Source: a virus. Taken from it: a DNA stretch of 21,902 nucleotides. Made by a program: the position numbers and the translations under genes. Under the pieces are notes generated by a model. It searched no databases. It saw only the letters and a list, made by a program, of their open reading frames with translations, and was not told the origin of the DNA. The stretch spans positions 1 to 21,902 of IMG/VR virus record IMGVR_UViG_3300042301_000922. One strand, given 5' to 3'. This document shows, in pieces, positions 1,930-5,885 of this stretch. Each line of letters begins with the position of its first letter. The stretch's first letter is position 1.

Positions 1930-3847
1930 ATGCTCGTGCGTATCTGCTTGCAACGAACTTTGACATCGAAGATTCTTGATTTCGAATTGGAGATCTAATT
2001 ATCTGAGAGGTATTGTTGTTTGTTGTGACTGGAGCATTAACAACAGCAGTGTTACCGCTGCCACCACCGCCACTTACTGCAGCATTATCAGCGTTTGTTC
2101 TAGAACCACCCTCAACTGCATTTGCCATTCTCATTGCTGCACCCATAGCTGCAATTTTATCAACTGGAAGGTCAGAGATCGCTTTAATTGTTTTAGTATC
2201 AATTGTAGAGAATTTACCCAAACCAGTAGCAAGAGCCATTACACCATCACCTGCTGCTTTGATATCTTGACCTCGTTCACCCATCATCATAATCTGTTCA
2301 ACTGGAGACTTTCCAGGAGTTACTAGATTTAAGAATCCACCCACTAGATTACCGATACCAGCTGCAGCAGTTCCAGCACCGAACACTGCCATGCCTGCGC
2401 CAATAGCTGCAAGACCAGCACCAACCATAATAAGATTATTACCATCTAGCTGACCAAGTTTAGTCAACCCGTCAGTCATCTGAGAAAAGCCTTCACCCAC
2501 TGCTTGCATTGCTTCGCCAACAATCCACAAAGCACCACCGAGTAAACCAATTGCTGCAGCACCTAAAGTGATTGGAACAATAGCACTACCCATAACTGCA
2601 GCGATTACAGCAATACCAGCAACAGCAAGCATTCCCTTACCAATGGTTTCCCATTCTAATTCAGCGAATCCACCCAATGCTGCACTCATTCCGTACATGG
2701 CAAGAGCCAGTACACCAAGAGCAAACGCACCTTTAATAATAGATCCTTTTACTTTATCTAATCCGATTGCAGCAAGAACTAAACCACCAAGAGCAACCAT
2801 ACCTTTACCGATTGAATCCCATTCAACTTCGCCAAATTCTTGGAATGCCTTTGCTGCAACAAACAATGCTGCACCAATTGCCAAAAGACCGATACCGAAT
2901 TTCTTCATGCCATCTAATGCTTTACCTGCACCACCACTCATTAAACCAGAGAGCATACCTCCACCTGCTTTGTCACCTTCAGCTGGCTTAGCTTTTTGGT
3001 CAGGAGACTCACCACGAGTATTCTGCTCAATTTTAATAAAAAGATCTTCTTGTTTCTGAGCATGTTTTTGTGCTTCAAGTGCTTGTTCTTCGTTAGCGCC
3101 AGAATCTGCAAACTGCTGAGTTGGAGAAGTTTTTAAACTACCTGCTCTTAAATCTGCGCCAGCAAGAGTATCTGTCAGAGAATTTCGTTTAGCGAATAGA
3201 TCCTTACCTGCACCTCTCTTAGCCAATTCAGCTTCTGACATCCCAGTATCTTTTTTCAACTGGGAGATTTCAGCTTCGTTTTTCTTGATATCTTTTGCTG
3301 CTCTATTTGCAGTTTCAAATTTACCAGAAAGAGTAGAGCGATCATCCTCAGAACCAAGTTTTCTTTGAGTTTGAATAAACTTTTCTTTGGCGATAGACTT
3401 ATCAAAGATACCACCAATATTCACTGCTTTCAATGCAGTTGTTTTTAGAGCAGATCCAGAACCAAACTTATCTTTGAAACTTTTACCCATATCAGAGATT
3501 CGATCTCCCATGGTCTTAAATGTTTGCATACCCTTAGCAATATTAGCAATTGCTTTTGCTTCTTCTCTGGTATATGTACCTTGTTCTTTAATGGATTTTG
3601 AGATGTCTTTTTGAACTTTTAAAATTTCTTTATCAATTTTAACATTCTGTTCGGCAATCTTTTCTTGTCTATCACCATCATCGTCAATTTGTTTAGTCTC
3701 GTACAGACTCGCAAACTCAGTCAATTTAATTAACTGCATAGTTTCTGAAATCGTCTTTAGAGATTTCATTGACTCTGTTTGCGCATTGAGTAATGCCGTC
3801 ATGTCACTTGATGTGACATGTACTTGATAGTTTTTATTTTTTGCCAT
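1928..3847 (-). CDS. 29: Tail tape measure protein, T4 gp29-like
   Basis: The 639-aa product is near the length of T4 gp29 (590 aa). Residues 1-300 are polar, helical and probably coiled coil. About 305-545 hold a chain of Ala/Gly-rich hydrophobic segments (GIGLLAIGAALFVAAKAF, GMVALGGLVLAAIG, GMLAVAGIAVIAAVMG), as is common in tape measure proteins. A 56-residue duplication carries EVEWDSIGKGM (about 338) and ELEWETIGKGM (about 394). The C-terminus is Asn/Ser-rich and ends in SRYARA. The family spans the tail tube lumen, sets tail length and is attached to the hub. The ATG has a GAGGA ribosome binding site, and the gene follows the chaperone-like frames by three bases. The identification rests on composition, length and position more than on direct alignment. 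Confidence 0.75.
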   Translation of the reverse strand: MAKNKNYQVHVTSSDMTALLNAQTESMKSLKTISETMQLIKLTEFASLYETKQIDDDGDRQEKIAEQNVKIDKEILKVQKDISKSIKEQGTYTREEAKAIANIAKGMQTFKTMGDRISDMGKSFKDKFGSGSALKTTALKAVNIGGIFDKSIAKEKFIQTQRKLGSEDDRSTLSGKFETANRAAKDIKKNEAEISQLKKDTGMSEAELAKRGAGKDLFAKRNSLTDTLAGADLRAGSLKTSPTQQFADSGANEEQALEAQKHAQKQEDLFIKIEQNTRGESPDQKAKPAEGDKAGGGMLSGLMSGGAGKALDGMKKFGIGLLAIGAALFVAAKAFQEFGEVEWDSIGKGMVALGGLVLAAIGLDKVKGSIIKGAFALGVLALAMYGMSAALGGFAELEWETIGKGMLAVAGIAVIAAVMGSAIVPITLGAAAIGLLGGALWIVGEAMQAVGEGFSQMTDGLTKLGQLDGNNLIMVGAGLAAIGAGMAVFGAGTAAAGIGNLVGGFLNLVTPGKSPVEQIMMMGERGQDIKAAGDGVMALATGLGKFSTIDTKTIKAISDLPVDKIAAMGAAMRMANAVEGGSRTNADNAAVSGGGGSGNTAVVNAPVTTNNNTSQIIRSPIRNQESSMSKFVASRYARA

Positions 3848-3850
3848 CTG

Positions 3851-4033
3851 TTACATCCTCTTTTTGGATTCTATTCTTTTCTTTTCTTCTTCAAGATACT
3901 GAATTAGCATGAAGACATATACTTCTCTTTCGAAAGGTATCATTTCTTCCAGCTCAGCCAAAGAGTATTTGTGGTACTGCATCATCGCAAAATTCATTTT
4001 ATAATAGTTCTCAAGCGATTCATGACTGAGCAA
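3851..4033 (-). CDS. Short -1 frame after gp26; likely frameshift extension (tail assembly chaperone, T-like part)
   Basis: This 60-codon frame begins at a TTG, two bases past the gp26 stop, and has no well-placed ribosome binding site of its own; an in-frame ATG occurs 13 codons in. It is open back through the gp26 stop to 4039-4045, where a slippery T-run would let ribosomes leave gene 26 and continue here, giving a fusion of about 302 residues. Its sequence (MNFAMMQYHKYSLAELEEMIPFEREVYVFMLIQYLEEEKKR) is helical, with the MIPFERE-Y pattern I associate with short tail chaperone or gp51-like frames ahead of tape measure genes. T4 gp51 itself is much longer (249 aa), so no symbol is given. It ends three bases before the tape measure start. 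Confidence 0.65.
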   Translation of the reverse strand: MLSHESLENYYKMNFAMMQYHKYSLAELEEMIPFEREVYVFMLIQYLEEEKKRIESKKRM

Positions 4034-4035
4034 TA

Positions 4036-4060
4036 CTAAAAAAAACTTTGGAGTCCCTCC
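4036..4060 (-). promoter_or_regulatory. Predicted programmed -1 ribosomal frameshift site
   Basis: On the - strand the end of gene 26 reads AGT TTT TTT TAG. The heptamer T TTT TTT (4045-4039) is in the correct phase for tandem -1 slippage and lies immediately before the stop (4038-4036). GGAGGG (4060-4055) is nine bases upstream. It is too far from the downstream TTG to serve as its ribosome binding site, but close to the spacing of the stimulatory Shine-Dalgarno in E. coli dnaX. A weak CTCA/TGAG stem (4030-4027 with 4013-4010) begins eight bases after the heptamer. A -1 shift reads LVLLSHES and enters the 60-codon frame. Slippage of RNA polymerase on the run of eight T is an alternative. Confidence 0.7.
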
Positions 4061-4758
4061 AACATCTTAACATGGTGTCTTCCACAAACAGGGCAGTCAT
4101 ATTCAATCTCTTTTTTAATCTTCGGCATTGTTTCAAAGAACTTTTGAACTCTAGCAAACTGCTCTGAAGATAGGTTTTCGATAAACTGTAATAGTTCAGG
4201 CTGAGTTTGTTCTTTAGCATAAAACAAATTATCGCCATCATAAATGTAATCAATAGATAAAGCCATAATATCAAAGACTGTATCTAAGTCACTGGTATCA
4301 AAACCCTCTAATTTTTTAATAACATCAACTGTAGGATACTTCATCACTACACCGACATTACCGAACAATTCAATCTTACTGCTATGGTCTGCAGATTTTT
4401 CTACAGTAATCGTAGACAAGTCAACAGTAACAGTGGTTTTAGCTTTTTCGTTTTGCTCTCCGTGATCTGTATCACAGGCAAAAATTAAATCAACTGTTTC
4501 ACCAACAGACTTACCACGAATCTGAGTAAACATATACTCTAGATCGAATGTTGCTAGTTTTTCAACATTAATCTCGTCTTGAACGCAAGACTTAACAACT
4601 TTCTTCAATGTTTCAATCATTGTTACTACATCTTCAGATTGCTGTGCAATCAAAAGTGCTTTCTCCTCTTTAACGAGGAATGGACGGTATCTTACTGTCG
4701 CTCCACTTGAAGGCACAACCATTGTGTAGGTTGGTGTATTCATCATCGGCAAAGCCAT
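4036..4758 (-). CDS. 26: Baseplate/hub assembly protein, T4 gp26-like
   Basis: This is a 240-aa protein (T4 gp26 is 208 aa). Its opening, YTMVVPSSGATVRYRPFLVKEEKALL, carries the RPFLVKEEK signature of the T4 baseplate protein family (PF12322). The C-terminus has a likely metal-binding knuckle, CPVCGRHH (Cys222, Cys225, His228, His229), and ends LEGLQSFF. In T4, gp26 acts in assembly of the central baseplate hub. Its place directly ahead of the tape measure gene, with a -1 slippery site at its end, suggests it is the counterpart of the G-type tail chaperone. The ribosome binding site AAAGGAGAA lies inside the end of gene 16, and the ATG is two bases past that stop, so the two are probably translationally coupled. 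Confidence 0.8.
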   Translation of the reverse strand: MALPMMNTPTYTMVVPSSGATVRYRPFLVKEEKALLIAQQSEDVVTMIETLKKVVKSCVQDEINVEKLATFDLEYMFTQIRGKSVGETVDLIFACDTDHGEQNEKAKTTVTVDLSTITVEKSADHSSKIELFGNVGVVMKYPTVDVIKKLEGFDTSDLDTVFDIMALSIDYIYDGDNLFYAKEQTQPELLQFIENLSSEQFARVQKFFETMPKIKKEIEYDCPVCGRHHVKMLEGLQSFF

Positions 4759-4760
4759 AA

Positions 4761-5174
4761 TTATTCTCCTTTAGACATATTCTTAATTAACTTATTCAAC
4801 TCAGCAGTGCTACCTGTAAAGATAACATTGTTATTCGTCACTTCTTTTCTGGATCCTTCTTTAGGTGTATCCAGCTTTTGCTTCTGTTGATGTAGATCTA
4901 ATAACTGTTGGTTTATATCAGCCAACTGCTTCATTAGATTTCCAACAACTTCAAATGCTCTTGGATGCTCAGACTGCATAGCCACGTCAAGTGACTTCTG
5001 TAGTGCTTCCTGTCCCTGTTGCAGTAATATACGAAGATTACCTCGAGTAACATCGAAGTCGTCTTGAATTTTATTTGTAGAGTCGTTAATAACTTCTCCA
5101 GTCTTTGTTATCACTTCAGTGTTGCCCATTGGTTGTATTCCAAATTCGGCAGATAATGTGTCATCAATCTTCAT
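4761..5174 (-). CDS. 16: Terminase small subunit, T4 gp16-like
   Basis: The ATG at 5174 is chosen over a TTG two codons upstream (5180), because AAGGA stands eight bases before the ATG; this gives 137 aa (T4 gp16 is 164). The segments DDFDVTRGNLRILLQQGQ, SEHPRAFEVVGNLMKQLADIN and VIFTGSTAELNKLI align with T4 gp16 ([35 protein letters not shown] and TVFVGSPTDLMDEI). The family forms oligomeric rings that recognise the genome and stimulate the gp17 packaging motor. Its centre is rich in Gln and Leu and probably coiled coil. Unlike in T4, no gene 17 adjoins it; it lies among tail genes. Confidence 0.8.
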   Translation of the reverse strand: MKIDDTLSAEFGIQPMGNTEVITKTGEVINDSTNKIQDDFDVTRGNLRILLQQGQEALQKSLDVAMQSEHPRAFEVVGNLMKQLADINQQLLDLHQQKQKLDTPKEGSRKEVTNNNVIFTGSTAELNKLIKNMSKGE

Positions 5175-5192
5175 TCGCAATCCTTAATGATG

Positions 5193-5200
5193 TATTTATT
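5193..5200 (-). promoter_or_regulatory. Candidate T4-type late promoter upstream of gene 16
   Basis: AATAAATA on the - strand differs from the T4 late box TATAAATA at one base and lies in the short gap between the gp54-like gene and gene 16. Initiation a few bases downstream would give a leader that still includes the AAGGA ribosome binding site. The AT-rich background makes chance matches easy. Confidence 0.4.
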
Positions 5201-5885
5201 AGAATCTTAGCAATCCTGGAAGTTTAGTTACAACAGCAGAACCCAAAGCACCTGTTACGAAGTTACCAGCACGTTCACCGATAACTCCATTTATCTGTTC
5301 CTGAAATCCAGTAAAGTTTTTAGTTAATTTATCAATGAAGGATGTTGGAATCTTTTGTCCGTCTGCTAGAGGACTCTTTGTTGTAGCAGTCCAGTATTTG
5401 TACTGCATAGTTACTTGCATTTTCATAAAATCTTTATTGGAATAATCCATCTGAATTGAACTAATGTTCTTTGGATAGCACTCATATAAAGTCATTTCAT
5501 AACGAGTTTTATTTTGAAGATCTTGAACTTCAATCTTCATCTCTGAAATATAATCATTATAATAACTAAATGTTCTTGTTTTGGGGTCTTGAATACTACC
5601 AATCCAATCATCAAATAATGCTTTAACTTTCATATCGTTATCTACATAGAATGACATAGATAAGTTATCATATAACTTTTCATATGGTGTTTCTCTAAAT
5701 TCACCGAATGTTCTATTTTGAACTGTTGAGTAATTAACTCCTGGAAGTTGAATCTGATCGCAGAAAAGTAAAACTTTTCTTAATGCACCTGGATTTATTC
5801 GAGAAGGTGGAGTGAAGATAACAGCGTATCTGTTATTTCTAGCGAGAGAGCCTCGTTTAATTTCTGATATAAAATCTTTAAGCAT
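5199..5885 (-). CDS. 54: Tail-tube-like baseplate protein, probably tube initiator gp54-like
   Basis: This is a 228-aa protein with the tail-tube fold pattern: an N-terminal NNRYAVIFTPP strand, LLFCDQIQLPG, then SMSFYVDNDMKVKALFDDWIGSIQDP, an ECYPKNIS turn and a final MQVTMQYKYW strand. The DDWIGSIQDPKTR and ECYPKNISSI segments resemble T4 gp54 (QDWVNSVQDPVTG and TGCIPISVS), the protein on which tube polymerisation starts. T4 gp54 is longer (320 aa). A major tail tube (gp19) paralogue is the main alternative, since both share the fold. It starts one base after the upstream stop. Confidence 0.6.
   Translation of the reverse strand: MLKDFISEIKRGSLARNNRYAVIFTPPSRINPGALRKVLLFCDQIQLPGVNYSTVQNRTFGEFRETPYEKLYDNLSMSFYVDNDMKVKALFDDWIGSIQDPKTRTFSYYNDYISEMKIEVQDLQNKTRYEMTLYECYPKNISSIQMDYSNKDFMKMQVTMQYKYWTATTKSPLADGQKIPTSFIDKLTKNFTGFQEQINGVIGERAGNFVTGALGSAVVTKLPGLLRF

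Follow-up and report, generated by a model that had tools for sequence, protein, structure and literature searches.

Whether the gp26-like gene of this locus ends at its own stop codon, or is also read on by a programmed −1 frameshift into a short frame ahead of the tape measure gene, was the question raised by its sequence. The window, meaning the whole analysed stretch of DNA, was a T4-like phage fragment, a virus record of 21,902 bases. Its features at the junction are listed in Table 1. On the minus strand, the gp26 frame ended AGT TTT TTT TAG and the elements followed each other in the order GGAGGG (4060-4055), ACTCCAAAG (9 nt), T TTT TTT (4045-4039) and TAG (4038-4036). The gp26 end, the phased heptamer and the GGAGGG nine bases upstream, all described in the original prediction, were confirmed on this strand. 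The same was true of the 62-codon open −1 frame (4039-3851), which ended TAA CAG ATG, with the stop codon and three bases preceding the tape measure start at 3847. A fusion of gp26 with this extension is predicted to have 302 aa. The in-frame motif T_TTT_TTN was unique among about 6,900 codons in the 19 ORFs of the window, where it formed the last two sense codons of gp26. The phrog_634 family matched by the extension is annotated as "gp51 / baseplate hub assembly catalyst". An ORF at 4761-5180, flanked by the tail tube-like gene on one side and gp26 on the other, matched the terminase small subunit (phrog_445, E 4.4e-36); no such gene was annotated at that position in the isolate genomes viewed.

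Table 1. Coordinates of the gp26 locus and its surroundings in the window.
Feature	Position	Strand	Evidence or remark
gp26-like short form, putative tail assembly chaperone (G-like / TAC-N)	4036..4758	-	240 aa; PF12322 T4_baseplate E 8e-59; phrog_150 E 1.9e-64
Internal Shine-Dalgarno-like GGAGGG, 9 nt 5' of the slippery heptamer	4055..4060	-	best anti-SD duplex in its own gene
Slippery heptamer T_TTT_TTT, in phase, adjoining the gp26 stop	4039..4045	-	sequence; kept in relatives
gp26 stop codon TAG, terminating the unshifted product	4036..4038	-	
-1 frame extension (gp51-like, T-like part), 62 codons and stop	3851..4039	-	phrog_634 E 3.2e-25; C-terminal part of phrog_150
Tape measure protein gene, 639 aa	1928..3847	-	phrog_4372 tail length tape measure E 4.4e-12
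Tail tube-like gene (gp19/gp54 type), upstream, tail module context	5199..5885	-	phrog_45 E 3.9e-43; PF23849

The site was read in 80 IMG/VR loci retrieved with gp26 and in the isolate genomes Pelagibacter HTVC008M, Methylophilales Melnitz-2, pf16, P10VF, KVP40, CZ01, phiAS5, S13, G2, Cr30, phiM19, S-WAM1, S-CRM01, P-SSM2 and ACG-2014e. Near-copies were removed, and the deletion variant L015 and all incomplete loci were excluded, which gave a set of 47 dereplicated loci. These spanned marine and freshwater contigs, Kyanoviridae, KVP40, phiAS5, Cr30 and rhizobial phages. An in-phase T_TTT_TT[CTG] was present in all 47 loci, with the gp26 stop 0-6 nt after it. T_TTT_TTC was the most frequent variant (26 loci), followed by T_TTT_TTT (20) and T_TTT_TTG (1). 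When a marine relative was used as query in a second scan, T_TTT_TTC was found in 79 of 79 further distinct loci, with an extension of 58-67 codons where complete. The heptamer, its frame, the upstream ribosome-binding-like motif and the −1 extension were kept in the 47 dereplicated and the 79 further loci, as expected from the original prediction. The chance of the heptamer under codon usage, as a product over the 47 loci, was about 1e-24, a value that is overstated because the loci are related. The tape measure gene lay directly downstream of the extension in the window and in many relatives; a small ORF stood between them in some. In the close relative L015 (region 3690-3760), a deletion began at the T run and had taken away the initial portion of the extension (GTTTTTTT followed by TGAGCTGGAAGAG), leaving neither frame with a full long form. 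The locus either belongs to a defective phage or is misassembled.

An indel introduced into the T run during sequencing or assembly could split one continuous gene into two frames. T runs are error-prone and the L015 deletion begins at this very run, but the out-of-frame layout recurred, with T runs of different lengths, in contigs and isolate genomes that number well over 100 and are independent of one another. Sequencing error was rejected on the strength of these many genomes and is scarcely conceivable as the origin of the layout.

A comparison of synonymous change is a fairer test against chance than the codon-usage product, and it was computed per codon from 30 closely related sequences, all of the same length. 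Synonymous change was 0.00 at Gln237, Ser238 and Phe239 and 0.064 at Phe240. At Glu234, which is the GAG of GGAGGG, it was 0.043. The other 10-codon blocks of gp26 had values of 0.20-0.50, mostly 0.28-0.46. Among the 37 representatives with the Glu before Gly, this residue was coded by GAG in 23, compared with 8.1 expected. Differences in the extension amounted to 0.131, 0.043 and 0.311 at codon positions 1, 2 and 3, respectively, which identifies it as a translated protein. The extension is, by this pattern of substitutions, under protein-coding constraint.

The long form could also arise through transcriptional slippage on a run of eight T's. Eight consecutive T's were present in the window and 16 other representatives (17/47). 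The majority, 27 of 47, had only six T's, often as TTTTTTC, which is short for polymerase slippage and makes this mode unlikely. The ribosome-binding-like motif, with its conserved GAG at a fixed spacing, points to the ribosome instead of the polymerase. Transcriptional slippage is consequently given very little credence.

The extension might alternatively be a small independent gp51 gene beside gp26, translated from its own start or by termination-reinitiation at the gp26 stop. Most public records annotate a distinct "baseplate hub assembly catalyst" ORF, and an ATG stands at +2 in some relatives. In the window, the first possible start of the downstream frame was a TTG 5 nt after the start of the gp26 stop codon, and the prediction of a TTG-only start without a usable ribosome binding site proved correct there. 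However, 19 of 47 representatives had no start codon for the extension up to +12 nt. A single representative (1/47) combined an early ATG with a ribosome-binding match of 4 bases, and it kept the heptamer too. Annotated starts often truncate the conserved LSHESLENYY block, the frozen heptamer and GAG codon would be left unexplained, and both parts are fused in T4. An independent start was rejected, as none was present in 19/47 and only one was well placed. Loss of the slippery run together with a good start for the short frame, the pattern named as contrary to frameshifting, was not seen in these lineages among the 47 representatives checked. Two separate genes are thus highly improbable, about as much so as slippage of the polymerase.

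The frameshift joining gp26 to the short frame was supported by the conserved site and phase, by the synonymously frozen codons and by the in-frame fusion found in T4 gp51. The gp26 gene is predicted with high confidence to yield two proteins, a 240-aa short form and a 302-aa long form made by −1 slippage, which would constitute a G/GT-like tail chaperone pair. Most ribosomes would halt at TAG and release the short form. We infer that a minority would slip by −1 on T_TTT_TTT, while GGAGGG, nine bases upstream, holds on to the anti-Shine-Dalgarno of the 16S rRNA. Both Phe tRNAs would re-pair in the −1 frame, the stop codon would be bypassed and 62 more codons would be read to give the minor long form.

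The window GGAGGG was the strongest anti-Shine-Dalgarno match within its gp26 gene. In 25 of 47 representatives, the corresponding match was in the top 5% of its own gene. A weak downstream stem had been part of the original prediction, but it was not significant in the window (z −0.87; second calculation z −0.08) and is not a feature of the window's lineage, whose immediate relatives mostly lacked a stem. Strong stems just 3' of the site were present in S-WAM1, P-SSM2, pf16 and several marine contigs, with z of −4 to −8. Several marine cyanophages and pf16 (loci L074, L078, L100, L103 and L088) showed such strong RNA stems after the heptamer. The mean stem z in the second scan was −2.0; this value, the z of −0.08 and those strong-stem values that come from the same calculation as the z of −0.08 derive from mononucleotide shuffles without a covariation test and serve as a lead only. 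The stem was rejected as an essential element, being not significant in the window and present in some lineages only. The stimulators seem to be interchangeable across lineages. With the same heptamer throughout, the window lineage would depend on its strong internal Shine-Dalgarno and have no significant stem, many marine cyanophages would add a strong stem, and the T4 branch would have replaced the device by one gene duplication that fixed both products. Whether this forms a natural series for stimulator interchange is evenly balanced in our judgement. Two details may be new: the internal Shine-Dalgarno is under synonymous constraint, and stems are used variably.

T4 served as a natural control. 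The short form and the extension of the window were homologous to T4 gp26 and gp51 in profile searches. T4 gp26 (208 aa) and gp51 (249 aa) are separate, divergently transcribed genes; the window did not have this two-gene layout and carried one gene with a −1 extension. T4 gp26 matched phrog_150 over positions 14-235 only, and T4 gp51 matched it over 13-280 of 282, including the extension, and also matched phrog_634. By these profile matches, T4 gp51 contains both a gp26-like part and the extension, fused in frame. T4-type gp26 ended in KEFFELL or similar, mostly with TTC TTT after a Glu codon GAG or GAA, and T4-type gp51 passed through the junction in a single frame. The T_TTT_TTN heptamer was absent from T4-type gp26 genes, as expected if recoding has become dispensable. 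The two forms of the T4 branch would come from two genes, with 26 giving the short form and 51 a product in which the short part runs on into the extension. A tree of 67 proteins placed gp26 of the T4 branch in one group and gp51 in another (100/99 and 100/100, respectively). This is compatible with a single step in which duplication took the place of recoding; the direction is deduced, given the uncertain root of the tree and the long branches that meet at that point.

In the lambda system, the slippery sequence is G_GGA_AAG, compared with T_TTT_TTT in the window. The window resembles lambda gpG/gpGT and the tail-gene frameshift of long-tailed phages in having two ORFs ahead of the tape measure gene, of which the first ends in a −1 slip, and short and long forms with a common N-terminal part. 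Homology of the window proteins to the lambda G family was not detectable in a Pfam scan. By analogy, the short and long forms might act like gpG and gpGT, together on the tape measure protein before the tail tube polymerises. The part common to both forms would coat the tape measure protein and the extension would recruit tail tube subunits, so that both forms would be needed at a set ratio. The order of two ORFs before the tape measure gene supported the predicted status of gp26 and its extension as the T4-like counterpart of G/GT, a correspondence drawn from gene arrangement and sequence. The frameshift of E. coli dnaX is stimulated by an internal Shine-Dalgarno-like sequence some 10 nt ahead of the homopolymeric slippery heptamer A_AAA_AAG, and it also requires a downstream stem-loop. 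The window shares the upstream stimulator with dnaX but has no significant stem, and its heptamer is T_TTT_TTT and not A_AAA_AAG.

There are further parallels among phages. In Vandenendeviridae and Andersonviridae, which are other phage families than that of the window, the short-form gene carries a conserved T-rich −1 site (GTTTTT) at its 3' end and the extension precedes the tape measure gene (PMC12846349); the T-rich site and the gene order are alike. Tail assembly chaperones of T4-like phages were identified by Vladimirov, Gautam & Davidson (Virology 2022, 566:9-15), as cited in passages of PMC10885494 and PMC12846349. A passage of PMC12846349 cites the same study for −1 slippery T runs in the short-form chaperone genes of T4-like phages. 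The likeness to the T4-like 26/51 chaperones lies, by our reading, in the protein families (PF12322/phrog_150 for the short form and a phrog_634-type extension) and in the pair of short and long forms, whereas T4 uses two divergently transcribed genes where the window has one gene with a slippery site. Both the likeness of T4 26/51 to G/GT and the T-run frameshift sites of T4-like phages are already in the literature. The original prediction had regarded the feature as undescribed for T4, with genes 26 and 51 separate; their separateness stands, the two genes being divergent. The window represents a new, well-supported case of an arrangement already described for T4-like phages.

Evidence on the chaperone reading points both ways. 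In its favour, T4 gp26 and gp51 were classed as hub assembly chaperones, gp51 being required for assembly without becoming part of the virion (PMC3004832). The classical annotation is "baseplate hub assembly" and not tape measure chaperone, which counts against the proposed role. The AF2 model of gp26 (pLDDT 86.9) matched the HK97 tail assembly chaperone gp13 (PDB 2ob9) at ranks 2-3, with probabilities of 0.82/0.77 and an rmsd of 2.6-3.0 over 58 columns, at E 0.77. The match was partial, covering about a quarter of gp26, with an insignificant E-value; as a sign of a chaperone fold in the model it is suggestive and no more. Compared with HK97 gp13, gp26 is larger and has a putative zinc-binding CPxC segment. 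A model of the fused T4-type gp51 had no match in the PDB. The insignificant partial match to 2ob9, the lack of a PDB match for gp51 and the mostly absent stem in the immediate relatives also count against the reading.

A joined, frameshifted gp26 CDS was not annotated in any of the 22 public record stretches viewed. Many of them gave the extension its own start, at the cost of conserved residues, or omitted the extension. Sullivan et al. (2010) described gp51 of cyanophages and vibriophages as lacking the first ~200 residues, with cyanophage gp51 at ~20% of the T4 length; the word frameshift is absent from that paper (PMC3037559). The frameshift reading explains this, as gp26 encodes the ~200 residues. 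In cyanophages and vibriophages, the small product named "gp51 / baseplate hub assembly catalyst" very probably has no gene of its own and forms the end of a frameshifted gp26, and hundreds of public annotations with invented starts are therefore likely to be wrong. T4 genes 26 and 51 would then be the separate-gene version of a recoded pair, and their role as tape measure chaperones becomes testable. Distant gp26 homologues in Ackermannviridae and Vibrio phage K364 (loci L091, L102, L090 and L095) carried a homologous −1 extension, often unannotated. The sites in these phages read only ATTTTC, GTTTTC or CTTTTT, to which no standard two-tRNA heptamer could be assigned, raising the question of single-tRNA slippage as the mode by which the two parts are joined.
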